From Owenia fusiformis (lineage: Eukaryota > Annelida > Polychaeta > Sabellida > Oweniidae): a stretch of 64,000 bases of DNA. The DNA lies in contig CAIIXF020000002.1 in the NCBI GenBank assembly GCA_903813345.2, forward strand, positions 12,296,150 through 12,360,149, written 5' to 3'. Both the position numbers and the translations under genes were made by a program. The notes under the pieces are model-generated. The model was not told the origin of the DNA. It saw only the letters and a list, made by a program, of their open reading frames with translations, and ran no database searches. This document shows, piece by piece, positions 4,191 to 28,510 of the stretch (position 1 is the first letter of the stretch; each line of letters opens with the position of its first letter).

Positions 4191-5420
4191 GAACATGATT
4201 CATATTGGTGTCCATACATGAGAACGGTTGACAGTGATTCATAGGGGTATCCATACAGGGGAATGTTTAACCATAATTCATAATAAGCACCACATTGGTG
4301 GCACCAGATTCAAATCGGTATCCATGTGGGAAATGTTTGACCATGATTAATATTGGTATCCATACTGGTTAACACCAATTCATATTGGTATCCATACTCA
4401 AGAATGGTTGACCATGGTTCATAATGGGATACATGAAAGGGAATGATTGAGCATGATATGTATTAATGTCCATCCTGGATGTGGGTCCCCATACAGGAGA
4501 ATGGTTAACTATGATTCATATTTGTGTCCATACTGGAGAATGGTTAACTATGATTCATATTTGTGTCCATACTGGAGAATGGTTGAACATGATTCATATT
4601 TGTGACATAATGGAGAATGGTTGAACATGATTCATATTGGTATCCATACTGGGGATTAGTTGATCAGGATTCATGTGTGTGTCCATACAGGAGAATGGTT
4701 GACCATGATTTATATTGCTGTCTATACAGGGAAATGGTTGACCATAATTCATATCGCTGTCCATACTGGAGAATGGTTGACCATAATTCATATTGGTAAC
4801 CATACAGAAGAATAATTGACCATGATTTATATTGTCATACATATGTGGAAAAGGTTATTTATTATTCATAATGGGATCATGATTCATATTGATTCCATAC
4901 AGGAGTATGGTTGACCATGGTTCATATTGGTGTTTATGCTGTAGAATGCTTGTCCATAATTCATATTGTACCCTTTTATACATAAATGGAATCGATTATT
5001 TATTATTGATAATGAGATCATGATTCATATTGGTGTCCATACAGGGGAATGGTTGATTATGATTCATATTGGTGTCCATACTGGAGAATGGTTGAACATG
5101 ATTCATATTGGTGCCCATACTGGAGAATGGTTGAACATGATTCATATTGGTGTCCATACAGGAGAATGGTTGAACATGATTCATATTGGTGTCCATACTG
5201 GAGAATGGTTGAACATGATTCATATTGGTGACCATGATTAACATTTTTGTCCATACTGTAGAATGATGGACCATAATTCACTTGGCAATGGTTGACCATG
5301 ATTTACATCGGTACTGTCCATATTGTAGAATGGTGAACCTTCATTCATATTATTGGTGAATGGTTGACCATAATTCATATTGGTATCCATACTGGGGAAT
5401 GGTTGATACTATTCATACTG
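4191..5420 (+). repeat. 39-bp minisatellite array, right part
   Basis: Degenerate units of the same 39-bp family (TTCATATTGGTGTCCATAC, GGAGAATGGTTGACC). A clean block at about 5022-5230 holds five or six near-identical units whose last part is GGTTGAACATGA instead of GGTTGACCATGA. Several frames of 60-92 codons are open on both strands over the same bases. They are periodic artefacts and are not annotated as genes. Confidence 0.9.
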
Positions 5421-5545
5421 TTGTCCATACTTGACAATGTAGCCTTGCTTCAATACCCTAGATACCCCCTTCTTTTCTGTGTTAATTTAATTGAAGCAAG
5501 ACTATTGCGAATGGTCATTCAGGTCTAGACTTTGGAGTGGTTGAC
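5421..5545 (+). repeat. Diverged duplicate of the 2040-2120 spacer
   Basis: Contains TGTAGCCTTGCTTCAATACC, a run with TTCTTTTCTGTG, and GGTCTAGACTTTGGAGTGGT. The order and wording match the spacer at about 2040-2120 (TGTAGTCTTGCTTCAAAACC, AGTCCAGACTTGAATGGT), with an extra segment of about 15-20 bp. The pair shows that the array duplicated as a block long ago, spacer included. Confidence 0.7.
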
Positions 5546-6250
5546 CATGTTTTACAAAGGTACAGATGCAGGAGAATAGTTGACTATTATTCATAGAGGT
5601 GTCCATATGGTTGACTATTATTCATATAGGTGTCCATATGGTTGACTGTTATTCATAAAGGTGTCCATATGGTTGACTACTATTCATAGAGGTGTCCATA
5701 TGGTTGAATATTATTCATATACGTGTCCATATGGTTGACTGTTACTCATTAAGGTGTCCATATGGTTGACTATTATTCATAGAGGTGTCCATATGGTTGA
5801 CTATTATTCATAAATGTATCCATATGGTTGACTATCATTCATATAGTTTTCCATATGATTGACTTTTATTCATAGAGGTGTCCATATGGTTGACTATTAT
5901 TCATAAATGTATCCATATGGTTGACTATCATTCATATAGTTTTCCATATGATTGACTTTTATTCATAAAGGTATCCATATGGTTGACTATCATTCATATA
6001 GTTTTCCATATGGTTGACTTTTATTCAAAGAGGTGTCCATATGGTTGACTGTTATTCACATAGCTGTCCATATGGTTGACTTTTATTCTTAAAGGTCTCC
6101 ATATGGCTGACTATTATTCATATAGGTTTCCATATAGTTGACTATTATTTTAAACGTGTCCGTATGGTTGACTATTATCCATAAAGGTTGACTTTTATTC
6201 ATAAAGGTGTCCATATGGTTGACTATTATTCATATAGGTTTCGATCTGGT
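5546..6250 (+). repeat. 31-bp minisatellite derived from the 39-bp unit
   Basis: About 22 units with period 31 bp; GTCCATATGG at 5601 recurs as GTCCATATG at 5632. The unit reads GGTGTCCATATGGTTGACTATTATTCATA-like. Removing the 8 bases CTGGAGAA from the neighbouring 39-bp unit gives this arrangement exactly (GTCCATA joined to TGGTTGAC), so the 31-bp family probably began with an 8-bp deletion in one 39-bp unit and was then amplified. A pair of longer variants (TAGTTTTCCATATGATTGAC) repeats at about 5850 and 5940. Confidence 0.9.
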
Positions 6251-7089
6251 TGATAGGTAATAATGAGCACAAGTGTATAAATGCAGTCCAGAATAAGGCA
6301 TCAAAATTCTTTCTTGGTGTCGGTGTCAAAACAAACAACGAAGCAGCTCGAGCTGACCTTGGATGGGACTTACCACTTCACAAACAACAGATAGAGAGTG
6401 CACGTCTTTTTATACGCCTGCAAAATTTGGACAAAGATAGGTTAAACTCAAAAATACATCATTGGTCCTTAAGACGTAAAAAAAGTTGTGACTACAGAGT
6501 CCACAAGTTCTTAGAGGCATCAGGCCAAGGGAATATAACTCAAATGGAAAACTTAAATGCTAAAGCTATTTTAGAAGAGGTCAAGCTTTATCAACAATCT
6601 CAAGATCCCTTTCTAAAAAACATTTGGAATGACAAAAACAATGAAGTGAACGGTAATAAATTAAGAACTTTCAGGCAATTTAAGTATGGAGTAGTAGCAG
6701 AAAGTTATGTAACTTGTTTCATCCCAAGACACCATCGAAGTGCATTGGCTAAACTGAGAACTGGTACGCTACAACTCCGTATAGAAACTGGTAGATATGA
6801 TGGTACTCCTCTGGACCAGAGAGCTTGCAGACTCTGTGATTTGGAGCCCCCTTTGGATGAAGTTGAAAATGAAATTCATTTTCTGATAAAATGTCCACAC
6901 TATAAGCTCCTAAGGGATACCTTCTATAGAGAGATTGTGCAAGAGCAATTGCCATATATAGACTTGAATAATGCAAATTCACTTTTGACATTTATTAGCC
7001 TAATGCTTGCCAAGAAGATTCAAAAACCTCTAGCAGCTCTTATTCATAATATGTATTCAAAAAGGCAATTTGACTATGGCAGATTATAG
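6250..7089 (+). pseudogene. Non-LTR retrotransposon RT C-terminal fragment
   Basis: 279 open codons ending in TAG. The first codon is TTG and no in-frame ATG occurs until about codon 99, so this is a 5'-truncated remnant, not a complete gene. Residues 13-24 (VQNKASKFFLGV), 36-40 (DLGWD), 138-146 (KLRTFRQFK), 160-183 (R-HHRSALAKLRTG ... ETGRY), CRLC at 193-196 and the H210/C215 pair (EIHFLIKCPHY) form the known C-terminal module of many invertebrate LINE-type reverse transcriptases, with a C-x2-C...H-x4-C zinc motif. The RT catalytic domain (YxDD) is absent. It is flanked on both sides by 31-bp minisatellite units. The frame is intact over 279 codons, so the copy may be fairly young. Clade uncertain; it differs from the 2153-3976 element. 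Confidence 0.8.
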
Positions 7090-7225: not shown

Positions 7226-7545
7226 AATAAGCGTTTTGTTTCAAGGCTTTTTTCTCAATAGAACGTTTTATTTGAGGCTTTATGTCAAAAACGTTTTGTT
7301 TCGAGGCTTTTTTGGTTTTATTTGAGGTCTTTTGTTTTATTTGAGGTCTTTGGTCAAAAAGCGCTTTGTTTCGAGGCTTTTTCTCTATAAAACGTTTTAT
7401 TTGAGGCTTTTTGACAGAAAACGTTTTGTTTCGAGGCTTTTTTTTCGTTTTATTCGAGGTCTTTTGTTTTATTTGATGTCTTTGGTCAAAAAGCGCTTTG
7501 TTTCGATGCTTTTTTCTCTATAAAACATTTTATTTGAGGCTTTTC
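7226..7545 (+). repeat. Irregular left edge of the 61-bp satellite
   Basis: Short blocks of GTTTTATTTGAGG and CGTTTTGTTTCGAGGC type alternate with irregular spacing, including two GTTTTATTTGAGGTCTTT copies in direct succession at about 7316-7350. A segment repeats at 132 bp (GCGCTTTGTT at 7361 and 7493). The two halves of the later 61-bp unit look more alike here than in the main array. This is either the ancestral short-period state or an edge that escaped homogenisation. Small open frames of about 63 codons here are repeat artefacts. Confidence 0.8.
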
Positions 7546-10500
7546 GTCGATTAACGTTTTCTTTCGAGGCTATTTTGTGTATAAAACGTTTTATTTGAGG
7601 CTTTTCGTCGATTTACGTTTTGTTTCGAGTCTATTATGTGTATAAAACGTTTTATTTGAGGCTTTTCGTCGATTATCGCTTTGTTTCGAGGCTATTTTGT
7701 GTATAAAGCGTTTTATTTGAGGCTTTTCGTCGATTTACGTTTTGTTTCGAGGCTATTATGTGTATAAAACGTTTTATTTGAGGCTTTTCGTCGATTATCG
7801 CTTTGTTTCGAGGCTATTTTGTGTATAAAACGTTTTATTTGAGGCTTTTCGTCGATTAACGTTTTGTTTCGAGGCTATTAAGTGTATAAAACGTTTTATT
7901 TGAGGCTTTTCGTCGATTAACGTTTTGTTTCGAGGCTATAATGTGTATAAAACGTTTTATTTGAGGCTTTTCTTCGATTTACGTTTTGTTTCGAGGCTAT
8001 TATGTGTATAAAACGTTTTATTTGAGCCTTTTCGTCGATTTACGTTTTGTTTCGAGGCTATTATGTGTATAAAATGGTTTATTTGAGACTTTTCGTCGAT
8101 TTACGTTTTGTTTCGAGGCTATTATGTGTATAAAACGTTTTATTTGAGGCTTTTCGACGATTTACGTTTTGTTTCGAGGCTATTATGTGTATAAGACGTT
8201 TTATTTGAGGCTTTTCGTCGATTTACGTTTTGTTTCGAGGCTATTATGTGTATAAGACGTTTTATTTGAGGCTTTTCGTCGATTTACGTTTTGTTTCGAG
8301 GCTATTATGTGTATAAGACGTTTTATTTGAGGCTTTTCGTCGATTTACGTTTTGTTTCGAGGCTATTATGTGTATAAGACGGTTTATTTGAGGCTTTTCG
8401 TCGATTTACGTTTTGTTTCGAGGCTATTATGTGTATAAAACGTTTTATTTGAGGCTTTTCGACGATTTACGTTTTGTTTCGAGGCTATTATGTGTATAAA
8501 ACGGTTTATTTGAGGCTTTTCGTCGATTTACGTTTTGTTTCGAGGCTATTATGTGTATAAAACGGTTTATTTGAGGCTTTTCGTCGATTTACGTTTTGTT
8601 TCGAGGCTATTATGTGTATAAAACGTTTTATTTGAGGCTTTTCGTCGATTTACGTTTTGTTTCGAGGCTATTATGTGTATAAAACGTTTTATTTGAGGCT
8701 TTTCGTCGATTTACGTTTTGTTTCGAGGCTATTATGTGTATAAAACGTTTTATTTGAGGCTTTTCGTCGATTTACGTTTTGTTTCGAGGCTATTATGTGT
8801 ATAAAACGTTTTATTTGAGGCTTTTCGTCGATTTACGTTTTGTTTCGAGGCTATTATGTGTATAAGACGGTTTATTTGAGGCTTTATGTCGATTTACGTT
8901 TTGTTTCGAGGCTATTATGTGTATAAGACGTTTTATTTGAGGCTTTTCGTCGATTTACGTTTTGTTTCGAGGCTATTATGTGTATAAGACGGTTTATTTG
9001 AGGCTTTTCGTCGATTTACGTTTTGTTTCGAGGCTATTATGTGTATAACACGGTTTATTTGAAGCTTTTCGTCGATTTACGTTTTGTTTCGAGGCTGTTA
9101 TGTGTATAAAACGGTTTATTTGAGGATTTTCGTCGATTAACGTTTTGTTTCGAGGCTATTATGTGTATAAAACGTTTTATTTGAGGCTTTTCGACGATTT
9201 ACGTTTTGTTTCGAGGCTTTTATGTGTATAAAACGGTTTATTTGAGGCCTTTGTCGATTTACGTTTTGTTACGAGGCTATTATGTGTATAAAACGGTTTA
9301 TTTGAGGCTTTTTGTCGATTTACGTTTTGTTTCGAGGCTATTATGTGTATAAAACGTTTTATTTGAGGCTTTTCGTCGATTTACGTTTTGTTTCGAGGCT
9401 ATTATGTGTATAAAACGGTTTATTTGAGGGTTTTCGTCGATTAACGTTTTGTTCCGAGGCTATTATGTGTATAAAACGTTTTATTTGAGGCTTTTCGTCG
9501 ATTATCGCTTTGTTTCGAGGCTATTTTGTGTATACAACGTTTTATTTGAGGCTTTTCGTCGATTAACGTTTTGTTTCGAGGCTATTAAGTGTATAAAACG
9601 TTTTATTTGAGGCTTTTCGTCGATTAACGTTTTGTTTCGAGGCTATTATGTGTATAAAACGTTTTATTTGAGGCTTTTCTTCGATTTACGTTTTGTTTCG
9701 AGGCTATTATGTGTATAAAACGTTTAATTGAGCCTTTTCGTCGATTTACGTTTTGTTTCGAGGCTATTATGTGTATAAAATGGTTTATTTGAGACTTTTC
9801 GTCGATTTACGTTTTGTTTCGAGGCTATTATGTGTATAAAACGTTTTATTTGAGGCTTTTCGTCGATTTACGTTTTGTTTCGAGGCTATTATGTGTATAA
9901 AACGTTTTATTTGAGGCTTTTCGTCGATTTACGTTTTGTTTCGAGGCTATTATGTGTATAAGACGTTTTATTTGAGGCTTTTCGTCGATTTACGTTTTGT
10001 TTCGAGGCTATTATGTGTATAAGACGGTTTATTTGAGGCTTTTCGTCGATTTACGTTTTGTTTCGAGGCTGTTATGTGTATAAAACGGTTTATTTGAGGC
10101 TTTTCGTCGATTTACGTTTTGTTTCGAGGCTATTATGTGTATAAAACGTTTTATTTGAGGCTTTTCGACGATTTACGTTTTGTTTCGAGGCTATTATGTG
10201 TATAAAACGGTTTATTTGAGGCTTTTCGTCGATTTACGTTTTGTTTCGAGGCTATTATGTGTATAAAACGTTTTATTTGAGGCTTTTCATCGATTTACGT
10301 TTTGTTTCGAGGCTATTATGTGTATAAAACGTTTTATCTGAGGCTTTTCGTCGATTTACGTTTTGTTTCGAGGCTATTATGTGTATAAAACGTTTTATTT
10401 GAGGCTTTTCGTCGATTTACGTTTTGTTTCGAGGCTATTATGTGTATAAAACGTTTTATTTGAGGCTTTTCGTCGATTTACGTTTTGTTTCGAGGCTATT

Positions 10501-13500
10501 ATGTGTATAAAACGTTTTATTTGAGGCTTTTCGTCGATTTACGTTTTGTTTCGAGGCTATTATGTGTATAAGACGGTTTATTTGAGGCTTTATGTCGATT
10601 TACGTTTTGTTTCGAGGCTATTATGTGTATAAGACGTTTTATTTGAGGCTTTTCGTCGATTTACGTTTTGTTTCGAGGCTATTATGTGTATAAGACGGTT
10701 TATTTGAGGCTTTTCGTCGATTTACGTTTTGTTTCGAGGCTATTATGTGTATAACACGGTTTATTTGAAGCTTTTCGTCGATTTACGTTTTGTTTCGAGG
10801 CTGTTATGTGTATAAAACGGTTTATTTGAGGCTTTTCGTCGATTTACGTTTTGTTTCGAGGCTATTATGTGTATAAAACGGTTTATTTGAGGGTTTTCGT
10901 CGATTAACGTTTTGTTCCGAGGCTATTATGTGTATAAAACGTTTTATTTGAGGCTTTTCGTCGATTTACGTTTTGTTTCGAGGCTATTATGTGTATAAAA
11001 CGTTTTATTTGAGGCTTTTCGTCGATTTACGTTTTGTTTCGAGGCTATTATGTGTATAAAACGTTTTATTTGAGGCTTTTCATCGATTTACGTTTTGTTT
11101 CGAGGCTATTATGTGTATAAAACGTTTTATTTGAGGCTTTTCATCGATTTACGTTTTGTTTCGAGGCTATTATGTGTATAAAACGTTTTATTTGAGGCTT
11201 TTCGTCGATTTACGTTTTGTTTCGAGGCTATTATGTGTATAAAACGTTTTATTTGAGGCTTTTCATCGATTTACGTTTTGTTTCGAGGCTATTATGTGTA
11301 TAAAACGTTTTATTTGAGGCTTTTCGTCGATTTACGTTTTGTTTCGAGGCTATTATGTGTATAAAACGTTTTATTTGAGGCTTTTCGTCGATTAACGTTT
11401 TGTTTCGAGGCTATTAAGTGTATAAAACGTTTTATTTGAGGCTTTTCGTCGATTAACGTTTTGTTTCGAGGCTATTATGTGTATGAAACGTTTTATTTGA
11501 GGCTTTTCTTCGATTTACGTTTTGTTTCGAGGCTATTATGTGTATAAAACGTTTTATTTGAGCCTTTTCGTCGATTTACGTTTTGTTTCGAGGCTATTAT
11601 GTGTATAAAATGGTTTATTTGAGACTTTTCGTCGATTTACGTTTTGTTTCGAGGCTATTATGTGTATAAAACGTTTTATTTGAGGCTTTTCGTCGATTTA
11701 CGTTTTGTTTCGAGGCTATTATGTGTATAAAACGTTTTATTTGAGGCTTTTCGTCGATTTACGTTTTGTTTCGAGGCTATTATGTGTATAAGACGTTTTA
11801 TTTGAGGCTTTTCGTCGATTTACGTTTTGTTTCGAGGCTATTATGTGTATAAGACGGTTTATTTGAGGCTTTTCGTCGATTTACGTTTTGTTTCGAGGCT
11901 GTTATGTGTATAAAACGGTTTATTTTAGGCTTTTCGTCGATTTACGTTTTGTTTCGAGGCTATTATGTGTATAAGACGGTTTATTTGAGGCTTTTCGTCG
12001 ATTTACGTTTTGTTTCGAGGCTGTTATGTGTATAAAACGGTTTATTTGAGGCTTTTCGTCGATTTACGTTTTGTTTCGAGGCTATTATGTGTATAAAACG
12101 TTTTATTTGAGGCTTTTCGACGATTTACGTTTTGTTTCGAGGCTATTATGTGTATAAAACGGTTTATTTGAGGCTTTTCGTCGATTTATGTGTATAAAAC
12201 GTTTTATTTGAGGCTTTTCGTCGATTAACGTTTTGTTTCGAGGCTATTAAGTGTATAAAACGTTTTATTTGAGGCTTTTCGTCGATTAACGTTTTGTTTC
12301 GAGGCTATTATGTGTATAAAACGTTTTATTTGAGGCTTTTCTTCGATTTACGTTTTGTTTCGAGGCTATTATGTGTATAAAACGTTTTATTTGAGCCTTT
12401 TCGTCGATTTACGTTTTGTTTCGAGGCTATTATGTGTATAAAATGGTTTATTTGAGACTTTTCGTCGATTTACGTTTTGTTTCGAGGCTATTATGTGTAT
12501 AAAACGTTTTATTTAAGGCTTTTCGTCGATTTACGTTTTGTTTCGAGGCTATTTTGTGTATAAAACGTTTTATTTGAGGCTTTTCGTCGATTTACGTTTT
12601 GTTTCGAGGCTATTATGTGTATAAAACGTTTTATTTGAGGCTTTTCGACGATTTACGTTTTGTTTCGAGGCTATTATGTGTATAAAACGGTTTATTTGAG
12701 GCTTTTCGTCGATTTACGTTTTGTTTCGAGGCTATTATGTGTATAAAACGTTTTATTTGAGGCTTTTCATCGATTTACGTTTTGTTTCGAGGCTATTATG
12801 TGTATAAAACGTTTTATTTGAGGCTTTTCGTCGATTTACGTTTTGTTTCGAGGCTATTATGTGTATAAAACGTTTTATTTGAGGCTTTTCGTCGATTTAC
12901 GTTTTGTTTCGAGGCTATTATGTGTATAACACGGTTTATTTGAAGCTTTTCGTCGATTTACGTTTTGTTTCGAGGCTGTTATGTGTATAAAACGTTTTAT
13001 TTGAGCCTTTTCGTCGATTTACGTTTTGTTTCGAGGCTATTATGTGTATAAAATGGTTTATTTGAGACTTTTCGTCGATTTACGTTTTGTTTCGAGGCTA
13101 TTATGTGTATAAGAGGCTTTTTCGTCGATTTACGTTTTGTTTCGAGGCTATTATGTGTATAAAACGTTTTATTTGAGGCTTTTCGTCGATTTACGTTTTG
13201 TTTCGAGGCTATTATGTGTATAAGACGTTTTATTTGAGGCTTTTCGTCGATTTACGTTTTGTTTCGAGGCTATTATGTGTATAAGACGGTTTATTTGAGG
13301 CTTTTCGTCGATTTACGTTTTGTTTCGAGGCTGTTATGTGTATAAAACGGTTTATTTGAGGCTTTTCGTCGATTTACGTTTTGTTTCGAGGCTATTATGT
13401 GTATAAAACGTTTTATTTGAGGCTTTTCGACGATTTACGTTTTGTTTCGAGGCTATTATGTGTATAAAACGGTTTATTTGAGGCTTTTCGTCGATTTACG

Positions 13501-16500
13501 TTTTGTTTCGAGGCTATTATGTGTATAAAACGTTTTATTTGAGGCTTTTCATCGATTTACGTTTTGTTTCGAGGCTATTATGTGTATAAAACGTTTTATT
13601 TGAGGCTTTTCGTCGATTTACGTTTTGTTTCGAGGCTATTATGTGTATAAAACGTTTTATTTGAGGCTTTTCGTCGATTTACGTTTTGTTTCGAGGCTAT
13701 TATGTGTATAAAACGTTTTATTTGAGGCTTTTCGTCGATTTACGTTTTGTTTCGAGGCTATTATGTGTATAAGACGTTTTATTTGAGGCTTTTCGTCGAT
13801 TTACGTTTTGTTTCGAGGCTATTATGTGTATAAGACGGTTTATTTGAGGCTTTTCGTCGATTTACGTTTTGTTTCGAGGCTATTATGTGTATAACACGGT
13901 TTATTTGAAGCTTTTCGTCGATTTACGTTTTGTTTCGAGGCTGTTATGTGTATAAAACGGTTTATTTGAGGATTTTCGTCGATTAACGTTTTGTTTCGAG
14001 GCTATTATGTGTATAAAACGTTTTATTTGAGGCTTTTCGACGATTTACGTTTTGTTTCGAGGCTTTTATGTGTATAAAACGGTTTATTTGAGGCCTTTGT
14101 CGATTTACGTTTTGTTACGAGGCTATTATGTGTATAAAACGGTTTATTTGAGGCTTTTTGTCGATTTACGTTTTGTTTCGAGGCTATTATGTGTATAAAA
14201 CGTTTTATTTGAGGCTTTTCGTCGATTTACGTTTTGTTTCGAGGCTATTATGTGTATAAAACGGTTTATTTGAGGGTTTTCGTCGATTAACGTTTTGTTC
14301 CGAGGCTATTATGTGTATAAAACGTTTTATTTGAGGCTTTTCGTCGATTATCGCTTTGTTTCGAGGCTATTTTGTGTATAAAACGTTTTATTTGAGGCTT
14401 TTCGTCGATTAACGTTTTGTTTCGAGGCTATTAAGTGTATAAAACGTTTTATTTGAGGCTTTTCGTCGATTAACGTTTTGTTTCGAGGCTATTATGTGTA
14501 TAAAACGTTTTATTTGAGGCTTTTCTTCGATTTACGTTTTGTTTCGAGGCTATTATGTGTATAAAACGTTTTATTTGAGCCTTTTCGTCGATTTACGTTT
14601 TGTTTCGAGGCTATTATGTGTATAAAATGGTTTATTTGAGACTTTTCGTCGATTTACGTTTTGTTTCGAGGCTATTATGTGTATAAAACGTTTTATTTGA
14701 GGCTTTTCGTCGATTTACGTTTTGTTTCGAGGCTATTATGTGTATAAGACGGTTTATTTGAGGCTTTTCGTCGATTTACGTTTTGTTTCGAGGCTGTTAT
14801 GTGTATAAAACGGTTTATTTGAGGCTTTTCGTCGATTTACGTTTTGTTTCGAGGCTATTATGTGTATAAAACGTTTTATTTGAGGCTTTTCGACGATTTA
14901 CGTTTTGTTTCGAGGCTATTATGTGTATAAAACGGTTTATTTGAGGCTTTTCGTCGATTTACGTTTTGTTTCGAGGCTATTATGTGTATAAAACGTTTTA
15001 TTTGAGGCTTTTCATCGATTTACGTTTTGTTTCGAGGCTATTATGTGTATAAAACGTTTTATTTGAGGCTTTTCGTCGATTTACGTTTTGTTTCGAGGCT
15101 ATTATGTGTATAAAACGTTTTATTTGAGGCTTTTCGTCGATTTACGTTTTGTTTCGAGGCTATTTTGTGTATAAAACGTTTTATTTGAGGCTTTTCGTCG
15201 ATTTACGTTTTGTTTCGAGGCTATTATGTGTATAAAACGTTTTATTTGAGGCTTTTCGTCGATTTACGTTTTGTTTCGAGGCTATTATGTGTATAAGACG
15301 GTTTATTTGAGGCTTTATGTCGATTTACGTTTTGTTTCGAGGCTATTATGTGTATAAGACGTTTTATTTGAGGCTTTTCGTCGATTTACGTTTTGTTTCG
15401 AGGCTATTATGTGTATAAGACGGTTTATTTGAGGCTTTTCGTCGATTTACGTTTTGTTTCGAGGCTATTATGTGTATAACACGGTTTATTTGAAGCTTTT
15501 CGTCGATTTACGTTTTGTTTCGAGGCTGTTATGTGTATAAAACGGTTTATTTGAGGCTTTTCGTCGATTTACGTTTTGTTTCGAGGCTATTATGTGTATA
15601 AAACGGTTTATTTGAGGGTTTTCGTCGATTAACGTTTTGTTCCGAGGCTATTATGTGTATAAAACGTTTTATTTGAGGCTTTTCGTCGATTTGCGTTTTG
15701 TTTCGAGGCTATTATGTGTATAAAACGTTTTATTTGAGGCTTTTCGTCGATTTACGTTTTGTTTCGAGGCTATTATGTGTATAAAACGTTTTATTTGAGG
15801 CTTTTCATCGATTTACGTTTTGTTTCGAGGCTATTATGTGTATAAGACGTTTTATTTGAGGCTTTTCGTCGATTTACGTTTTGTTTCGAGGCTATTATGT
15901 GTATAAGACGGTTTATTTGAGGCTTTTCGTCGATTTACGTTTTGTTTCGAGGCTATTATGTGTATAACACGGTTTATTTGAAGCTTTTCGTCGATTTACG
16001 TTTTGTTTCGAGGCTGTTATGTGTATAAAACGGTTTATTTGAGGATTTTCGTCGATTAACGTTTTGTTTCGAGGCTATTATGTGTATAAAACGTTTTATT
16101 TGAGGCTTTTCGACGATTTACGTTTTGTTTCGAGGCTTTTATGTGTATAAAACGGTTTATTTGAGGCCTTTGTCGATTTACGTTTTGTTACGAGGCTATT
16201 ATGTGTATAAAACGGTTTATTTGAGGCTTTTTGTCGATTTACGTTTTGTTTCGAGGCTATTATGTGTATAAAACGTTTTATTTGAGGCTTTTCGTCGATT
16301 TACGTTTTGTTTCGAGGCTATTATGTGTATAAAACGGTTTATTTGAGGGTTTTCGTCGATTAACGTTTTGTTCCGAGGCTATTATGTGTATAAAACGTTT
16401 TATTTGAGGCTTTTCGTCGATTATCGCTTTGTTTCGAGGCTATTTTGTGTATAAAACGTTTTATTTGAGGCTTTTCGTCGATTAACGTTTTGTTTCGAGG

Positions 16501-19500
16501 CTATTAAGTGTATAAAACGTTTTATTTGAGGCTTTTCGTCGATTAACGTTTTGTTTCGAGGCTATTATGTGTATAAAACGTTTTATTTGAGGCTTTTCTT
16601 CGATTTACGTTTTGTTTCGAGGCTATTATGTGTATAAAACGTTTTATTTGAGCCTTTTCGTCGATTTACGTTTTGTTTCGAGGCTATTATGTGTATAAAA
16701 TGGTTTATTTGAGACTTTTCGTCGATTTACGTTTTGTTTCGAGGCTATTATGTGTATAAAACGTTTTATTTGAGGCTTTTCGTCGATTTACGTTTTGTTT
16801 CGAGGCTATTATGTGTATAAAACGTTTTATTTGAGGCTTTTCGTCGATTTACGTTTTGTTTCGAGGCTATTATGTGTATAAGACGTTTTATTTGAGGCTT
16901 TTCGTCGATTTACGTTTTGTTTCGAGGCTATTATGTGTATAAGACGGTTTATTTGAGGCTTTTCGTCGATTTACGTTTTGTTTCGAGGCTGTTATGTGTA
17001 TAAAACGGTTTATTTGAGGCTTTTCGTCGATTTACGTTTTGTTTCGAGGCTATTATGTGTATAAAACGTTTTATTTGAGGCTTTTCGACGATTTACGTTT
17101 TGTTTCGAGGCTATTATGTGTATAAAACGGTTTATTTGAGGCTTTTCGTCGATTTACGTTTTGTTTCGAGGCTATTATGTGTATAAAACGTTTTATTTGA
17201 GGCTTTTCATCGATTTACGTTTTGTTTCGAGGCTATTATGTGTATAAAACGTTTTATTTGAGGCTTTTCGTCGATTTACGTTTTGTTTCGAGGCTATTAT
17301 GTGTATAAAACGTTTTATTTGAGGCTTTTCGTCGATTTACGTTTTGTTTCGAGGCTATTATGTGTATAAAACGTTTTATTTGAGGCTTTTCGTCGATTTA
17401 CGTTTTGTTTCGAGGCTATTATGTGTATAAAACGTTTTATTTGAGGCTTTTCGTCGATTTACGTTTTGTTTCGAGGCTATTATGTGTATAAGACGGTTTA
17501 TTTGAGGCTTTATGTCGATTTACGTTTTGTTTCGAGGCTATTATGTGTATAAGACGTTTTATTTGAGGCTTTTCGTCGATTTACGTTTTGTTTCGAGGCT
17601 ATTATGTGTATAAGACGGTTTATTTGAGGCTTTTCGTCGATTTACGTTTTGTTTCGAGGCTATTATGTGTATAACACGGTTTATTTGAAGCTTTTCGTCG
17701 ATTTACGTTTTGTTTCGAGGCTGTTATGTGTATAAAACGGTTTATTTGAGGCTTTTCGTCGATTTACGTTTTGTTTCGAGGCTATTATGTGTATAAAACG
17801 GTTTATTTGAGGGTTTTCGTCGATTAACGTTTTGTTCCGAGGCTATTATGTGTATAAAACGTTTTATTTGAGGCTTTTCGTCGATTTACGTTTTGTTTCG
17901 AGGCTATTATGTGTATAAAACGTTTTATTTGAGGCTTTTCGTCGATTTACGTTTTGTTTCGAGGCTATTATGTGTATAAAACGTTTTATTTGAGGCTTTT
18001 CATCGATTTACGTTTTGTTTCGAGGCTATTATGTGTATAAAACGTTTTATTTGAGGCTTTTCATCGATTTACGTTTTGTTTCGAGGCTATTATGTGTATA
18101 AAACGTTTTATTTGAGGCTTTTCGTCGATTTACGTTTTGTTTCGAGGCTATTATGTGTATAAAACGTTTTATTTGAGGCTTTTCATCGATTTACGTTTTG
18201 TTTCGAGGCTATTATGTGTATAAAACGTTTTATTTGAGGCTTTTCGTCGATTTACGTTTTGTTTCGAGGCTATTATGTGTATAAAACGTTTTATTTGAGG
18301 CTTTTCGTCGATTAACGTTTTGTTTCGAGGCTATTAAGTGTATAAAACGTTTTATTTGAGGCTTTTCGTCGATTAACGTTTTGTTTCGAGGCTATTATGT
18401 GTATGAAACGTTTTATTTGAGGCTTTTCTTCGATTTACGTTTTGTTTCGAGGCTATTATGTGTATAAAACGTTTTATTTGAGCCTTTTCGTCGATTTACG
18501 TTTTGTTTCGAGGCTATTATGTGTATAAAATGGTTTATTTGAGACTTTTCGTCGATTTACGTTTTGTTTCGAGGCTATTATGTGTATAAAACGTTTTATT
18601 TGAGGCTTTTCGTCGATTTACGTTTTGTTTCGAGGCTATTATGTGTATAAAACGTTTTATTTGAGGCTTTTCGTCGATTTACGTTTTGTTTCGAGGCTAT
18701 TATGTGTATAAGACGTTTTATTTGAGGCTTTTCGTCGATTTACGTTTTGTTTCGAGGCTATTATGTGTATAAGACGGTTTATTTGAGGCTTTTCGTCGAT
18801 TTACGTTTTGTTTCGAGGCTGTTATGTGTATAAAACGGTTTATTTTAGGCTTTTCGTCGATTTACGTTTTGTTTCGAGGCTATTATGTGTATAAGACGGT
18901 TTATTTGAGGCTTTTCGTCGATTTACGTTTTGTTTCGAGGCTGTTATGTGTATAAAACGGTTTATTTGAGGCTTTTCGTCGATTTACGTTTTGTTTCGAG
19001 GCTATTATGTGTATAAAACGTTTTATTTGAGGCTTTTCGACGATTTACGTTTTGTTTCGAGGCTATTATGTGTATAAAACGGTTTATTTGAGGCTTTTCG
19101 TCGATTTACGTTTTGTTTCGAGGCTATTATGTGTATAAAACGTTTTATTTGAGGCTTTTCATCGATTTACGTTTTGTTTCGAGGCTATTATGTGTATAAA
19201 ACGTTTTATTTGAGGCTTTTCGTCGATTTACGTTTTGTTTCGAGGCTATTATGTGTATAAAACGTTTTATTTGAGGCTTTTCGTCGATTTACGTTTTGTT
19301 TCGAGGCTATTATGTGTATAAAACGTTTTATTTGAGGCTTTTCGTCGATTTACGTTTTGTTTCGAGGCTATTATGTGTATAAAACGTTTTATTTGAGGCT
19401 TTTCGTCGATTTACGTTTTGTTTCGAGGCTATTATGTGTATAAAACGTTTTATTTGAGGCTTTTCGTCGATTTACGTTTTGTTTCGAGGCTATTATGTGT

Positions 19501-22500
19501 ATAAGACGGTTTATTTGAGGCTTTATGTCGATTTACGTTTTGTTTCGAGGCTATTATGTGTATAAGACGTTTTATTTGAGGCTTTTCGTCGATTTACGTT
19601 TTGTTTCGAGGCTATTATGTGTATAAGACGGTTTATTTGAGGCTTTTCGTCGATTTACGTTTTGTTTCGAGGCTATTATGTGTATAACACGGTTTATTTG
19701 AAGCTTTTCGTCGATTTACGTTTTGTTTCGAGGCTGTTATGTGTATAAAACGGTTTATTTGAGGCTTTTCGTCGATTTACGTTTTGTTTCGAGGCTATTA
19801 TGTGTATAAAACGGTTTATTTGAGGGTTTTCGTCGATTAACGTTTTGTTCCGAGGCTATTATGTGTATAAAACGTTTTATTTGAGGCTTTTCGTCGATTT
19901 ACGTTTTGTTTCGAGGCTATTATGTGTATAAAAGGTTTTATTTGAGGCTTTTCGTCGATTTACGTTTTGTTTCGAGGCTATTATGTGTATAAAACGTTTT
20001 ATTTGAGGCTTTTCATCGATTTACGTTTTGTTTCGAGGCTATTATGTGTATAAAACGTTTTATTTGAGGCTTTTCATCGATTTACGTTTTGTTTCGAGTC
20101 TATTATGTGTATAAAACGTTTTATTTGAGGCTTTTCGTCGATTTACGTTTTGTTTCGAGGCTATTATGTGTATAAAACGTTTTATTTGAGGCTTTTCATC
20201 GATTTACGTTTTGTTTCGAGGCTATTATGTGTATAAAACGTTTTATTTGAGGCTTTTCGTCGATTTACGTTTTGTTTCGAGGCTATTATGTGTATAAAAC
20301 GATTTATTTGAGGCTTTTCGTCGATTAACGTTTTGTTTCGAGGCTATTAAGTGTATAAAACGTTTTATTTGAGGCTTTTCGTCGATTAACGTTTTGTTTC
20401 GAGGCTATTATGTGTATAAAACGTTTTATTTGAGGCTTTTCTTCGATTTACGTTTTGTTTCGAGGCTATTATGTGTATAAAACGTTTTATTTGAGCCTTT
20501 TCGTCGATTTACGTTTTGTTTCGAGGCTATTATGTGTATAAAATGGTTTATTTGAGACTTTTCGTCGATTTACGTTTTGTTTCGAGGCTATTATGTGTAT
20601 AAAACGTTTTATTTGAGGCTTTTCGTCGATTTACGTTTTGTTTCGAGGCTATTATGTGTATAAAACGTTTTATTTGAGGCTTTTCGTCGATTTACGTTTT
20701 GTTTCGAGGCTATTATGTGTATAAGACGTTTTATTTGAGGCTTTTCGTCGATTTACGTTTTGTTTCGAGGCTATTATGTGTATAAGACGGTTTATTTGAG
20801 GCTTTTCGTCGATTTACGTTTTGTTTCGAGGCTGTTATGTGTATAAAACGGTTTATTTGAGGCTTTTCGTCGATTTACGTTTTGTTTCGAGGCTATTATG
20901 TGTATAAAACGTTTTATTTGAGGCTTTTCGACGATTTACGTTTTGTTTCGAGGCTATTATGTGTATAAAACGGTTTATTTGAGGCTTTTCGTCGATTTAC
21001 GTTTTGTTTCGAGGCTATTATGTGTATAAAACGTTTTATTTGAGGCTTTTCATCGATTTACGTTTTGTTTCGAGGCTATTATGTGTATAAAACGTTTTAT
21101 TTGAGGCTTTTCGTCGATTTACGTTTTGTTTCGAGGCTATTATGTGTATAAAACGTTTTATTTGAGGCTTTTTGTCGATTTACGTTTGTTTCGAGGCTAT
21201 TATGTGTATAAAACGTTTTATTTGAGGCTTTTCGTCGATTTACGTTTTGTTTCGAGGCTATTATGTGTATAAAACGTTTTATTTGAGGCTTTTCGTCGAT
21301 TTACGTTTTGTTTCGAGGCTATTATGTGTATAAGACGGTTTATTTGAGGCTTTATGTCGATTTACGTTTTGTTTCGAGGCTATTATGTGTATAAGACGTT
21401 TTATTTGAGGCTTTTCGTCGATTTACGTTTTGTTTCGAGGCTATTATGTGTATAAGACGGTTTATTTGAGGCTTTTCGTCGATTTACGTTTTGTTTCGAG
21501 GCTATTATGTGTATAACACGGTTTATTTGAAGCTTTTCGTCGATTTACGTTTTGTTTCGAGGCTATTATGTGTATAAAACGGTTTATTTGAGGGTTTTCG
21601 TCGATTAACGTTTTGTTCCGAGGCTATTATGTGTATAAAACGTTTTATTTGAGGCTTTTCGTCGATTTACGTTTTGTTTCGAGGCTATTATGTGTATAAG
21701 ACGGTTTATTTGAGGCTTTTCGTCGATTTACGCTTTGTTTCGAGGCTGTTATGTGTATAAAACGGTTTATTTGAGGCTTTTCGTCGATTTAAGTTTTCTT
21801 TCGAGGCTATTATGTGTATAAAACGTATTATTTGAGGCTTTTCGACGATTTACGTTTTGTTTCGAGGCTATTATGTGTATAAAACGGTTTATTTGAGGCT
21901 TTTCGTCGATTTACGTTTTGTTTCGAGGCTATTATGTGTACAAAACGTTTTATTTGAGGCTTTTCATCGATTTACGTTTTGTTTCGAGGCTATTATGTGT
22001 ATAAAACGTTTTATTTGAGGCTTTTCGTCGATTTACGTTTTGTTTCGAGGCTATTATGTGTATAAAACGGTTTATTTGAGGCTTTTCGTCGATTTACGTT
22101 TTGTTTCGAGGCTATTATGTGTATAAAACGGTTTATTCGAGGGTTTTCTTCGATTTACGTTTTGTTACGAGGCTATTATGTGTATAAAACGTTTTATTTG
22201 AGGCTTTTCGTCGATTTACGTTTTGTTTCGAGGCTATTATGTGTATAAGACGTTTTATTTGAGGCTTTTCGTCGATTTACGTTTTGTTTCGAGGCTATTA
22301 TGTGTATAAAACGGTTTATTCGAGGGTTTTCTTCGATTTACGTTTTGTTTCGAGGCTATTATGTGTATAAAACGTTTTATTTGAGGCTTTTCGTCGATTT
22401 ACGTTTTGTTTCGAGGCTATTATGTGTATAAGACGTTTTATTTGAGGCTTTTCGTCGATTTACGTTTTGTTTCGAGGCTATTATGTGTATAAAACGTTTT

Positions 22501-24887
22501 ATTTGAGGCTTTTCGTCGATTTACGTTTTGTTTCGAGGCTATTATGTGTATAAAACGTTTTATTTGAGGCTTTTCGTCGATTTACGTTTTGTTTCGAGGC
22601 TATTATGTGTATAAAACGTTTTATTTGAGGCTTTTCGTCGATTTACGTTTTGTTTCGAGGCTATTATGTGTATAAGACGTTTTATTTGAGGCTTTTCGTC
22701 GATTTACGTTTTGTTTCGAGGCTATTATGTGTATAAGACGGTTTATTTGAGGCTTTTCGTCGATTTACGTTTTGTTTCGAGGCTGTTATGTGTATAAAAC
22801 GGTTTATTTGAGGCTTTTCGTCGATTTACGTTTTGTTTCGAGGCTATTATGTGTATAAAACGTTTTATTTGAGGCTTTTCGACGATTTACGTTTTGTTTC
22901 GAGGCTATTATGTGTATAAAACGGTTTATTTGAGGCTTTTCGTCGATTTACGTTTTGTTTCGAGGCTATTATGTGTATAAAACGTTTTATTTGAGGCTTT
23001 TCATCGATTTACGTTTTGTTTCGAGGCTATTATGTGTATAAAACGTTTTATTTGAGGCTTTTCGTCGATTTACGTTTTGTTTCGAGGCTATTATGTGTAT
23101 AAAACGTTTTATTTGAGGCTTTTCGTCGATTTACGTTTTGTTTCGAGGCTATTATGTGTATAAAACGTTTTATTTGAGGCTTTTCGTCGATTTACGTTTT
23201 GTTTCGAGGCTATTATGTGTATAAAACGTTTTATTTGAGGCTTTTCGTCGATTTACGTTTTGTTTCGAGGCTATTATGTGTATAAGACGGTTTATTTGAG
23301 GCTTTATGTCGATTTACGTTTTGTTTCGAGGCTATTATGTGTATAAGACGTTTTATTTGAGGCTTTTCGTCGATTTACGTTTTGTTTCGAGGCTATTATG
23401 TGTATAAGACGGTTTATTTGAGGCTTTTCGTCGATTTACGTTTTGTTTCGAGGCTATTATGTGTATAACACGGTTTATTTGAAGCTTTTCGTCGATTTAC
23501 GTTTTGTTTCGAGGCTGTTATGTGTATAAAACGGTTTATTTGAGGCTTTTCGTCGATTTACGTTTTGTTTCGAGGCTATTATGTGTATAAAACGGTTTAT
23601 TTGAGGGTTTTCGTCGATTAACGTTTTGTTCCGAGGCTATTATGTGTATAAAACGTTTTATTTGAGGCTTTTCGTCGATTTACGTTTTGTTTCGAGGCTA
23701 TTATGTGTATAAAACGTTTTATTTGAGGCTTTTCGTCGATTTACGTTTTGTTTCGAGGCTATTATGTGTATAAAACGTTTTATTTGAGGCTTTTCATCGA
23801 TTTACGTTTTGTTTCGAGGCTATTATGTGTATAAAACGGTTTATTTGAGGCTTTTCGACGATTTACGTTTTGTTTCGAGGCTATTATGTGTATAAAACGT
23901 TTTATTTGAGGCTTTTCGTCGATTAACGTTTTGTTTCGAGGCTATTAAGTGTATAAAACGTTTTATTTGAGGCTTTTCGTCGATTAACGTTTTGTTTCGA
24001 GGCTATTATGTGTATAAAACGTTTTATTTGAGGCTTTTCTTCGATTTACGTTTTGTTTCGAGGCTATTATGTGTATAAAACGTTTTATTTGAGCCTTTTC
24101 GTCGATTTACGTTTTGTTTCGAGGCTATTATGTGTATAAAATGGTTTATTTGAGACTTTTCGTCGATTTACGTTTTGTTTCGAGGCTATTATGTGTATAA
24201 AACGTTTTATTTGAGGCTTTTCGTCGATTTACGTTTTGTTTCGAGGCTATTATGTGTATAAAACGTTTTATTTGAGGCTTTTCGACGATTTACGTTTTGT
24301 TTCGAGGCTATTATGTGTATAAAACGTTTTATTTGAGGCTTTTCGTCGATTAACGTTTTGTTTCGAGGCTATTATGTGTATAAAACGGTTTATTTGAGGC
24401 TTTTCGTCGATTTTCATTTTGTTTCGAGGCTATTATGTGTATAAAACGTTTTATTTGAGGCTTTTCGTCGATTTACGTTTTGTTTCGAGGCTATTATGTG
24501 TATAAAACGTTTTATTTGAGGCTTTTCGTCGATTTACGTTTTGTTTCGAGGCTATTATGTGTATAAGACGGTTTATTTGAGGCTTTATGTCGATTTACGT
24601 TTTGTTTCGAGGCTATTATGTGTATAAGACGTTTTATTTGAGGCTTTTCGTCGATTTACGTTTTGTTTCGAGGCTATTATGTGTATAAGACGGTTTATTT
24701 GAGGCTTTTCGTCGATTTACGTTTTGTTTCGAGGCTATTATGTGTATAACACGGTTTATTTGAAGCTTTTCGTCGATTTACGTTTTGTTTCGAGGCTATT
24801 ATGTGTATAAAACGTTTTATTTGAGGCTTTTCGTCGATTTACGTTTTGTTTCGAGGCTATTATGTGTATAAAACGTTTTATTTTAGG
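7546..24887 (+). repeat. 61-bp satellite array, + orientation, main block
   Basis: About 285 tandem units with period exactly 61 bp; ATTTACG at 8221 recurs at 8282. Landmarks in order are ATAAAACGTTTTAT (a perfect 14-bp palindrome), TTTGAGGCTTTTCGTCG, ATTTACGTTTTG, TTTCGAGGCTATTATGTG. The consensus is about 33% GC, with 5 of its 7 cytosines in CpG. Units differ by recurring diagnostic changes (AAGACG, ACGG, CATCG, GACGATT, GTTATG, TTAAGTG, GAGCC with AAAATGG). Their order repeats in long blocks: GAGGCCT at 9244, 14090 and 16163 shares its neighbours in all three places. Truncated units occur at about 12188 and 13110. No gene is present, and stops occur in every frame. Confidence 0.97.
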
Positions 24888-25357
24888 GTATGAGTACCGT
24901 AATCCAACGCCAAATTCGAAAATTCATAACAATACTTTGCACATATGGCGTTCGTGACCAACTATAAAACGCTTACCCCCCATAGTGTTATATATCAAAA
25001 TGTACCTGTTCATATAGGGGTTTGATTGATCTACATCAAATTATAGGGAGTCAGGTTACTTTTTGAGATATCAGCGTCCGTTTATTGTGACTCGCGTTTG
25101 CTACCACATCCTCAATTCTGATACGACGGGCAAACGCGTAGTAAACACCTTCACGTCGGAACTATTTTTGACCTACATCGCTATTTTCGTAATTCAAATG
25201 AAAGTTGAACTCCTCCTCTTTATTTTGATACCAAATAGTGGCATACTAGGTACCCTAGAAGCAAACTATGGCGTTATTTAGAACAATACCACGAGTTTTT
25301 AAATGGACTATATAGGGGTCATACCTTTTGGCGGATGGATATGGAACCTCATACCTT
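24887..25357. repeat. Terminal direct repeat A, left copy
   Basis: 471 bp, begins GGTATGAGTACCG and ends ACCTCATACCTT, so its own ends are inverted (GGTATGAG/CTCATACC). Internal features: an inverted pair CGCGTTTGC (25093-25101) and GCAAACGCG (25130-25138) with a 28-nt loop, and a TATA-like CTATATAGG at 25308-25316 near its right end. A 72-codon open frame at 25063-25281 starts with TTG and has no ATG start; I do not regard it as a gene. Confidence 0.9.
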
Positions 25358-26614
25358 AATGTGTTATGACATCACACTGATTTTTGTCTCTGCAACTTTT
25401 TTTGGCAGAATATATCATTTTTAGTTCAAAAATGCATAAAAACGTCGGAACTGGCTGAATATGTGAAAAATTTATCCATTTAGGCTAGAAAGGGTTAATT
25501 TGCCCTACCCCAAATACGTCTAAATATGCTAGTCTAACTTTGCCACTGTGACGTCACAAATCTAACCTGACTATCTATGAGTTTATTGAAGAAGATGATA
25601 CGTCTGACAAACAGCTTTCATACCCTATATGGCACACCTTCTACTAAGAGTTGCATCATTGACTAAATCTAAGACAAAGGTCCTGTGTCCCGAGGATTTT
25701 GACTGAAATTTGGCCATTTTCGCCCAAATCTAACTAAATTGCAGTTTCCCCCACACCTGTATTTTGAAATAAATATTGCTACAATGTAGCAATTTAAAAA
25801 TCACACATGATTACTGTTTCTGTCGACCTGACACGTGTATCTAGCCTGTAAAAATGAAAAATCGCTATATTGTAGCAATTTCACTGAGATATGGGCCCTG
25901 AAAATCATGTAATTTTAGCAAAAAATGAAGAAATAACCTGCAATTTTGACGGAATTTCAGAGGGCTCTCTTTCATCCATGACCCTCCACGGGCCTCTTAT
26001 GACCATTCTTATACTCACAGAATGGTTGAAAGTGATTTCAAATCATTGTTTGCCCTACGCAGAACGAAAAAATCGATTCTGTTCTCAAATTCTGCTAGAA
26101 TATTGGTCTCTGGCCAACTAGCAGACAATTTTAGGCCTCATATTAAGGTATGAGTACCGTAATCCAACGCCAAATTCGAAAATTCATAACAATACTTTGC
26201 ACATATGGCGTTCGTGACCAACTATAAAACGCTTACCCCCCATAGTGTTATATATCAAAATGTACCTGTTCATATAGGGGTTTGATTGATCTACATCAAA
26301 TTATAGGGAGTCAGGTTACTTTTTGAGATATCAGCGTCCGTTTATTGTGACTCGCGTTTGCTACCACATCCTCAATTCTGATACGACGGGCAAACGCGTA
26401 GTAAACACCTTCACGTCGGAACTATTTTTGACCTACATCGCTATTTTCGTAATTCAAATGAAAGTTGAACTCCTCCTCTTTATTTTGATACCAAATAGTG
26501 GCATACTAGGTACCCTAGAAGCAAACTATGGCGTTATTTAGAACAATACCACGAGTTTTTAAATGGACTATATAGGGGTCATACCTTTTGGCGGATGGAT
26601 ATGGAACCTCATAC
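24888..26614. mobile_element. Unclassified A-B-A composite insertion in the satellite
   Basis: The only non-satellite sequence inside the 61-bp array. Two identical 471-bp direct repeats (24887-25357 and 26147-26617, offset 1260, no difference seen) flank about 789 bp of other sequence. The outer ends are inverted, GTATGAG and CTCATAC. The satellite reads ...AGG before and CTTTTCG... after, which in an uninterrupted unit are adjacent (GAGGCTTTTCG), so no bases were lost and no duplication is evident. It resembles a non-autonomous LTR-type element in outline, but I see no tRNA primer-binding site after the first repeat and no purine tract before the second. No transposase or integrase frame exists. 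Family unknown. Confidence 0.85.
25358..26146. other. Central segment B of the composite element
   Basis: About 789 bp, unrelated to repeat A and to the satellite. Its margins are CCTTAATGTG on the left and CATATTAAGG on the right, inverted with one mismatch. TTAA therefore lies at both A/B junctions (25356-25359 and 26143-26146), and the inverted match extends into A as CTCATACCTTAAT. A near-perfect 19-bp palindrome, ATTGCTACA-A-TGTAGCAAT, lies at 25775-25793, with a further TGTAGCAATTT near 25871. The longest ATG frame is 76 codons (25891-26121) with no recognisable domain. Its function is unknown. Confidence 0.75.
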
Positions 26615-26617
26615 CTT
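26147..26617. repeat. Terminal direct repeat A, right copy
   Basis: Identical over 471 bp to 24887-25357, including the CGCGTTTGC/GCAAACGCG stem (26353-26361 and 26390-26398). Its last bases, CTCATACCTT, run straight into satellite sequence (TTCGTCGATTTACG). Perfect identity implies recent duplication, recent insertion, or gene conversion. Confidence 0.9.
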
Positions 26618-28481
26618 TTCGTCGATTTACGTTTTGTTTCGAGGCTATTATGTGTATAAGACGGTTTATTTGAGGCTTTTCGTCGATTTACGTTTTGTTT
26701 CGAGGCTGTTATGTGTATAAAACGGTTTATTTGAGGCTTTTCGTCGATTTACGTTTTGTTTCGAGGCTATTATGTGTATAAAACGTTTTATTTGAGGCTT
26801 TTCGACGATTTACGTTTTGTTTCGAGGCTATTATGTGTATAAAACGGTTTATTTGAGGCTTTTCGTCGATTTACGTTTTGTTTCGAGGCTATTATGTGTA
26901 TAAAACGTTTTATTTGAGGCTTTTCATCGATTTACGTTTTGTTTCGAGGCTATTATGTGTATAAAACGTTTTATTTGAGGCTTTTCGTCGATTTACGTTT
27001 TGTTTCGAGGCTATTATGTGTATAAAACGTTTTATTTGAGGCTTTTCGTCGATTTACGTTTTGTTTCGAGGCTATTATGTGTATAAAACGTTTTATTTGA
27101 GGCTTTTCGTCGATTTACGTTTTGTTTCGAGGCTATTTTGTGTATAAAACGTTTTATTTGAGGCTTTTCGTCGATTTACGTTTTGTTTCGAGGCTATTAT
27201 GTGTATAAAACGTTTTATTTGAGGCTTTTCGTCGATTTGCGTTTTGTTTCGAGGCTATTATGTGTATAAGACGTTTTATTTGAGGCTTTTCGTCGATTTA
27301 CGTTTTGTTTCGAGGCTATTATGTGTATAAAACCGTTTATTTGAGGCTTTTCGTCGATTTACGTTTTGTTTCGAGGCTATTATGTGTATAAAACGTTTTA
27401 TTTGAGGCTTTTCGTCGATTTACGTTTTGTTTCGAGGCTATTATGTGTATAAAACGTTTTATTTGAGGCTTTTCGTCGATTTACGTTTTGTTTCGAGGCT
27501 ATTATGTGTATAAAACGTTTTATTTGAGGCTTTTCGTCGATTTGCGTTTTGTTTCGAGGCTATTATGTGTATAAAACGTTTTATTTGAGGCTTTTCGTCG
27601 ATTTACGTTTTGTTTCGAGGCTATTATGTGTATAAAACGTTTTATTTGAGGCTTTTCATCGATTTACGTTTTGTTTCGAGGCTATTATGTGTATAAAACG
27701 TTTTATTTGAGGCTTTTCGTCTATATACGTTTTGTTTCGAGGCTATTATGTGTATAAAACGTTTTATTTGAGGCTTTTCGTCGATTAACGTTTTGTTTCG
27801 AGGTTATTATGTGTATAAAACGGTTTATTTGAGGCTTTTCGTCGATTTACGTTTTGTTTCGAGGCTATTATGTGTATAAAACGTTTTATTTGAGGCTTTT
27901 CATCGATTTACGTTTTGTTTCGAGGCTATTATGTGTATAAAACGTTTTATTTGAGACTTTTCGTCGATTTACGTTTTGTTTCGAGGCTATTATGTGTATA
28001 AAACGTTTTATTTGAGGCTTTTCGTCGATTTACGTTTTGTTTCGAGGCTATTATGTGTATAAAACGGTTTATTTGAGGCTTTTCGTCGATTTACGTTTTG
28101 TTTCGAGGCTATTATGTGTATAAAACGTTTTATTTGAGGCTTTTCGTCGATTTACGTTATGTTTCGAGGCTATTTTGTGTATAAAACGTTTTATTTGAGG
28201 CTTTTCGTCGATTTACGTTTTGTTTCGAGGCTATTATGTGTATAAAACGTTTTATTTGAGGCTTTTCGTCGATTTACGTTTTGTTTCGAGGCTATTATGT
28301 GTATAAAACGGTTTATTTGAGGCTTTTCGTCGATTTACGTTTTGTTTCGAGGCTATTATGTGTATAAAACGTTTTATTTGAGGCTTTTCGTCGATTTACG
28401 TTTTGTTTCGAGGCTATTATGTGTATAAAACGGTTTATTTGAGGCTTTTCGTCGATTTACGTTTTGTTTCGAGGCTATTAT
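26615..28481 (+). repeat. 61-bp satellite array, + orientation, second block
   Basis: About 31 further units of the same monomer in the same orientation and phase as before the insertion, up to the inversion point. Variants seen here include ATTTGCG at about 27238 and 27542, CGTCTATATACG at about 27719, and GTTATG lost to GTTATTATG near 27800. Confidence 0.96.
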
Positions 28482-28510
28482 GTGTATATATAAAATAATA
28501 ACCTCGAAAC
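28471..28510. repeat. Inversion centre between opposite satellite arrays
   Basis: GAGGCTATTAT (28471-28481) is followed by a 13-nt spacer GTGTATATATAAA (28482-28494) and then ATAATAACCTC, the reverse complement with one change. From here the monomer is read on the other strand to the window end. The arms therefore form a near-palindrome extending for kilobases on both sides. The order of ACGG and ACGT unit variants outward from the centre is not mirrored, so it is not a simple fold-back copy of the adjacent units. Confidence 0.9.

Follow-up and report, generated by a model that had tools for sequence, protein, structure and literature searches.

KolobokP, a lineage of the Kolobok superfamily described from animals, consists of composite-like transposons with direct-repeat ends (LTDRs) of about 450 or 660 bp (PMC9587614). 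Each LTDR has inverted ends of its own, 11 to 18 bp long and perfect or imperfect, with RR/YY termini, and insertions are flanked by duplications of 3 to 5 bp; the sections of PMC9587614 on which we draw report no strong target preference. Solo LTDRs and multimers of the form (LTDR-INT)n-LTDR, where INT is the middle part, are described in the same source, as are INT-INT borders that lack 3 to 4 bp, one flank copy having been lost. Coding families carry a DDD/E transposase, marked by a CCHC finger behind the first D and by C/DxxH, and a minus-strand His-Me nuclease (PMC9587614). Owenia fusiformis appears in Table 1 of that paper, whose text also names KolobokP-1_OwFu and places its LTDR in the 660-bp class.

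We analyzed an insertion in a 64-kb stretch of the Owenia genome, called here the window. From its sequence, this insertion is very probably (about 0.95) a non-autonomous KolobokP DNA transposon with the layout LTDR(469)-INT(791)-LTDR(469). In common with the elements described in PMC9587614, it has two direct-repeat ends of the class of about 450 bp (469 bp; 458 to 471 bp and 656/649 bp in relatives), and its family and relatives include solo LTDRs, multimers, INT-INT borders with one flank copy lost, short duplications, and coding members with a transposase and a minus-strand nuclease, recognized here by domain matches to PF20700 and PF05551. The window family differs from the elements reported there in that it is gene-less, with an INT of 791 bp, and makes TTAA-like duplications, with none at the window copy itself. 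A preliminary description had spoken of an unrecognised type; the type is KolobokP, already published by Kojima and Bao (2022, PMC9587614), and the window family is a non-autonomous member of it.

Other described systems share some of these features. The Xenopus T2-MITE and Xmix elements (PMC6004289) have a presumed Kolobok kinship, a TTAA target, purine termini, and tandem repeats within the MITE, but their terminus is AGGRR, and long direct-repeat ends go unmentioned in the parts of that paper used here. Bacterial composite and IS26-type pseudo-composite transposons likewise enclose a passenger between copies of a mobile unit in direct orientation (PMC9587614), whereas in the Owenia elements it is the middle part that carries the genes, the end repeat being gene-less.

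Results

Structure of the window insertion

The insertion and its surroundings comprise the following features; the LTDR and INT of this family are called A and B below.

7497..28488, + strand: forward part of the host 61-bp satellite, in two rows (7497-12188 and 12186-28488); holds the insertion
24883..24886, + strand: left flank tetramer TTAG; no counterpart on the right
24887..25355, + strand: left LTDR (A), 469 bp, inverted ends GGTATGAG/CTCATACC; same sequence as 26147-26615
25356..26146, + strand: INT (B), 791 bp, TTAA at both ends; longest listed ORF 76 aa
26147..26615, + strand: right LTDR, 469 bp, no difference from the left LTDR
26616..26619, + strand: right flank tetramer TTTT

Alignment recovered the two identical 471-bp direct repeats around about 789 bp in a 61-bp satellite that had been described previously (24887-25357 and 26147-26617, zero differences, 789 bp between them), and an exact repeat of this length is no chance event. 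The feature thus stands as first described, with its start and end off by 1 to 3 bases. Comparison with other copies sets the LTDR as an element of 469 bp, GGTATGAG...CTCATACC, and the final two T of the 471-bp aligned repeat belong to the flank or the INT. The inverted ends are perfect over 8 bp and match at 14 of the first 20 positions by eye, and the termini, GG...CC, fit the RR/YY of KolobokP. Open reading frames are short, with listed maxima of 76 aa in the INT and 72 aa per LTDR. Within the window, a 14-base word scan and blastn on both strands detected no additional A or B. The single Rfam match at the insertion scored 13.6 bits (gathering score 241; E 1.8) and was regarded as chance.

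The 61-bp satellite switches strand at window positions 28480-28500, 1.9 kb to the right of A-B-A. A simple assembly fold-back that includes A-B-A is excluded there because no mirror copy of A-B-A lies to the right. Tandem arrays of 39-bp, 117-bp, and 31-bp units occupy positions 610-6253, to the left of the 61-bp satellite.

Copies of A and B in the genome

We searched the genome (498,259,871 bases in 525 contigs) for A and B. The first search gave 1737 candidates for A and there were 303 for B, with 40 of each scored. The first 19 bases of A, with at most 3 mismatches, occurred 572 + 558 times, compared with 22 + 25 for the reversed control. Reading 20 stretches and then 11 more for their layout, we found solo A, A-B-A, A-B-B-A, A-B-A-B-A, and long arrays, among them a stretch on C5 with 11 A and 24 B pieces, one on C3 with 7 A and 21 B, and one on C2 with 6 A and 5 B. 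A and B all pointed in the same direction within each of the 13 arrays counted. The single direction of A in these 13 arrays, and array ends that consist of A and carry duplications of their own, spoke against A as an ordinary MITE inserted repeatedly in a B satellite, and that reading was rejected.

Two loci lie outside the 13-array count. In L030, A occurs in both orientations and single A pieces adjoin an array. In L031 (C2:585000-591000), an opposed pair of A lies 4.5 kb apart with mirrored flanks, within a large inverted duplication.

A further sample (L032-L071) comprised 40 A starts taken from 100 listed exact matches, 37 on C1 and 3 on C2; it is biased against arrays because these are mostly sites without a second listed A start nearby. 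B adjoined A in 4 of the 40. The left flank ATTGTGCTATAA of another dispersed repeat, called repeat C here, was present in 20 of the 40, with a variant in L055. At about half of the sampled sites, then, solo A sits at one fixed spot of this repeat, reading ATTGTGCTATAA|A|ATAAGCTTC or ATACGATAAGCTC. In L027:1-2301, A and repeat C are in tandem together with a period of 960. The solo LTDR in repeat C apparently hitchhiked within another element.

A inside repeat C: L032-L034, L040, L044, L045, L050-L053, L056, L061, L063-L068, L070, L071

The genome copies bear out the earlier suggestion of a young non-autonomous element, not an LTR retrotransposon, whose unit A also occurs alone. Solo copies of A elsewhere have 4-bp duplications of their own, and A-B-A is not confined to the window: it recurs at many sites, where its own ends and duplications are also present.

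Target duplications and inner junctions

Among 11 arrays read at both ends, an exact 4-bp duplication flanked the outer ends of 10 (TTAA four times, and TTTA, TAAA, ATAA, TTAG, TTAT, and ATAT), and 3 of 4 bases agreed in the remaining one. At both-ended sites outside repeat C, counted without the C5 array, the mixed-strand L030 and L031, and loci missing or unread at one end (e.g., L005, L010, L013, L029, L042, and L047), the duplication was exact in 18 of 25, two of which (L011 and L059) have flanks in common, and covered 2 to 3 of 4 bases in 7 of 25. Both-ended sites in repeat C were tallied separately (n = 17; 8 exact, 9 with 3 of 4 bases).

Inner junctions were counted in 67 loci or joined stretches. 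TTAA was present at 44 A-B and 45 B-A junctions, and B-B junctions had a single TTAA in 32 cases and ACCTTAA in one; five A/B junctions outside the 0-8 base gap rule (one in L010, two in L019, one each on C3 and C5) are not in these counts. Since the outer duplications differ by site while the inner junctions read TTAA, the unit moves as a whole by its outer ends, and it inherits its inner junctions.

Similarity of A within and between sites

We compared 48 near-full-length copies of A from 13 loci (12 arrays and the window). Divergence averaged 0.10% within loci (97 pairs, maximum 0.64%) against 1.81% between loci (1031 pairs, minimum 0), and the nearest copy, ties included, came from the same locus for 47 of 48. 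The first A of L003 matches that of another locus exactly and is 0.43% diverged from the last A of L003, and L001 and L019 have nearest-copy ties; these three loci count mildly against clustering by site. The likeness of A within sites favors local duplication or exchange.

A coding relative with A-like LTDRs

A search of the genome with PF05551 gave 54 matches and led to C7:17833443, where the LTDRs are 469 and 466 bp long and are 85.9 and 85.5% identical to A over its full length. The INT of this copy measures 3485 bp and, as in B, has TTAA at its start and end; TTGG stands on both flanks. Its PF05551 match scores 31.3 bits (cut-off 27). The PF20700 matches fall in two frames, so this copy has a split or frameshifted transposase gene. 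A-like LTDRs, PF20700, and PF05551 occur together at this locus.

Positions 151-233 of B align with positions 151-233 of the C7 INT, in the same register, at 79.8% over 84 columns. The rest of B has no match above chance to the C7 INT, and most of B has no similarity to any of the coding INTs examined. Because it has TTAA ends and this one collinear stretch in common with the C7 relative, B looks like the shortened INT of a larger element, so that the alternative first proposed, in which a second element interrupts a smaller element in dimer form, is not the best reading.

Further coding families

A PF20700 profile search of the genome gave 115 matches. A 711-aa frame is repeated on small contigs with spacings of 3346, 3821, and 4295 bp, the last seen once, on C313. 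Its unit, T, is 3346 bp long, and a repeat of about 470 bp, A', is present at some T-T borders; on C11, a chromosomal copy has the layout A'-T-A', and its transposase frame contains one stop. Of 15 further T-T borders (C513, C418, and C443), 6 had A', 2 had TATTA, and 7 had TAATA. A' is flanked by TATTA and TAATA, and therefore a border after loss of A' retains one flank copy or the other. The contigs C513, C313, C418, and C443 (L082 and L093-L107) are arrays of open 711-aa transposase and nuclease frames with LTDRs at some borders only.

Five coding families with LTDRs are listed below, the first being that of A'-T-A'; the duplications of families 1, 3, 4, and 5 shift by one or two bases with the placement of the ends.

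Family 1: LTDR 471 bp, INT 3349 bp; duplication readable as CTAA
Family 2: LTDR 460 bp, INT 3404 bp; duplication unclear (TAC)
Family 3: LTDR 459 bp, INT 3700 bp; duplication readable as CATC
Family 4: LTDR 458 bp, INT 3393 bp; duplication readable as AGAG
Family 5: LTDRs 656/649 bp, INT 3490 bp; duplication readable as ATCT

Left and right LTDRs of families 1 to 4 have the same sequence. Each of the five families carries a PF20700 transposase in its middle part and, toward the right end, a minus-strand ORF whose PF05551 match exceeds the cut-off (E 1.4e-9 to 6.2e-14). The one nuclease ORF compared with the PDB, that of family 2, matched I-PpoI (E 0.0045), and PF20700 was the sole match in a Pfam scan of one family-1 protein.

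The INTs of families 2, 3, and 4 (L086, L085, and L108) have common inverted-looking ends, TANTAGT.../...GGGCGATAATA, within unlike LTDRs; the parts of PMC9587614 used here make no mention of such ends. Short similar stretches occur in otherwise unlike LTDRs of families 1 and 2 (about positions 130-177; 85% over 40 bp) and of families 2 and 4 (about positions 151-202; 74.5% over 51 bp), and could possibly be a nuclease, promoter, or splice site.

Direct repeats were absent from the stretches read around the PF20700 loci L084 and L090 (559 aa), L087 (535 aa), and L110, and were partial or diverged at L111 (143 bp, 69%) and L112 (142 bp, 79%, plus 40-bp pairs). Neither L113 (no repeat longer than 60 bp) nor L114 (diverged repeats only), both His-Me loci, has LTDRs. 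L117 has a 102-bp repeat (96%) cut by the locus end.

Other candidates for the coding partner were rejected. GGTATGAG was absent from the ends of five piggyBac loci, its one occurrence, in L079, lying outside the candidate element, and from the five loci read for a THAP-bearing Kolobok. Four of the loci from the THAP search presumably encode HTH_Tnp_4/DDE_4 proteins, which they resemble by eye. An end-motif search with GGTATGAGMNNNNNNATCCA gave 7 places, five like variants of the A ends and two (C8 and C9) unlike them.

Discussion

Alternative explanations

A TRIM-type LTR retrotransposon would have short direct repeats around a core that lacks genes and would occur as tandem arrays and solo repeats as well, and the direct repeats, solo copies, arrays, and within-site likeness of A are all compatible with it. 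TRIM arrays, as presented in PMC9587614, share the direct repeats, arrays, and solo repeats with the Owenia elements but not the coding relatives with DNA transposon ends and enzymes, here a transposase domain and a nuclease. A also ends in GG...CC with 8-bp inverted ends rather than TG...CA, solo A has 4-bp duplications of its own, and the C7 relative weighs strongly against a retrotransposon, which we consider almost certainly the wrong explanation. The TTAA-like targets would suit two piggyBac-type MITEs that enclosed a stretch of host DNA lying between two TTAA sites and now mobilize it as a composite, and a family search did find piggyBac transposases with open frames in the Owenia genome. 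However, many duplications of the A family are not TTAA, as opposed to the strict TTAA of piggyBac, and four of the five piggyBac loci examined end in TTAA plus C-type inverted ends (CTCTTTC, CTCATT, CCTTTAG, and CTCTTTCTTTGCG), the fifth yielding no candidate. The C7 relative, moreover, pairs A-like repeats with a PF20700 transposase, and such a composite is very improbable.

A different question concerns the window copy alone, which has no matching target duplication (TTAG on the left against TTTT on the right). The earlier statement that a duplication is missing holds for this copy and fails for the family, which makes duplications; likewise, the satellite phase was said to be kept, and it is (61 bp) if one G and one C are assigned to the satellite, but it is 59 bp if both outer bases belong to the element. 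In the genome, the right junction CTCATACCTTTTCGTC occurs once without mismatch and at 4 other places with one mismatch (6 + 6 for the reversed control), and the left flank variant TTTATTTTAGGCTTTTCG appears twice within unbroken 61-bp units of the array's forward part. The absent duplication could stem from later exchange, from flank loss of the KolobokP type, or from repair joining. Under the last of these, repair or recombination, and not a transposase, would have pasted A-B-A into the satellite, leaving no duplication. The unlike flanks, the single exact match of the right junction, and a join that is exact if one G and one C are satellite, like end joining with a one-base overlap on each side, agree with such pasting. 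Later exchange between two insertions would give the same picture, as would the loss of a few flank bases, and flank loss of 1 to 5 bp is known for KolobokP LTDR excision in the material cited from PMC9587614; repair pasting is a tentative and somewhat unlikely account of this one copy.

Proposed mechanism

Taking the insertion as a KolobokP element, a KolobokP transposase acting in trans would cut the outermost LTDR ends, so that the whole unit moves, and the same transposase could cut both ends of one LTDR, so that the LTDR moves alone. Loss of an LTDR from an array would leave an INT-INT border with a single flank copy. Exchange between LTDRs, perhaps aided by nuclease cuts, may give rise to arrays, to like LTDRs at each site, and to solo LTDRs.

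The border between LTDR and INT might itself be a cut site of the KolobokP His-Me nuclease, although on the sequences compared we judge this improbable. Both LTDR/INT borders of the window family read ATTAAGGTATGAG; the I-PpoI consensus CTCTCTTAAGGTAGC includes TTAAGGTA in the part of PMC6294500 cited here, and the I-PpoI cut leaves TTAA overhangs (PMC9587614). PMC9587614, in the sections drawn on here, left the homing site of the KolobokP nuclease open, and neither TTAAGG nor CCTTAA occurs in its main text. Against a nuclease site, the borders of families 1 to 5 do not read TTAAGGTA, and TTAA plus a purine end is expected from Kolobok targeting alone. If the border is such a site, cuts by the nuclease, and not the transposase alone, would free LTDRs, leave the single TTAA at INT-INT borders, and drive array growth.

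The question posed by A-B-A is settled as a published transposon type, with gene-bearing relatives, arrays, and solo ends within one genome. With array junctions that retain one or the other flank copy, and with open transposase frames arrayed on small contigs, the Owenia genome is suited to the study of how KolobokP keeps its ends alike even though the ends can leave alone.
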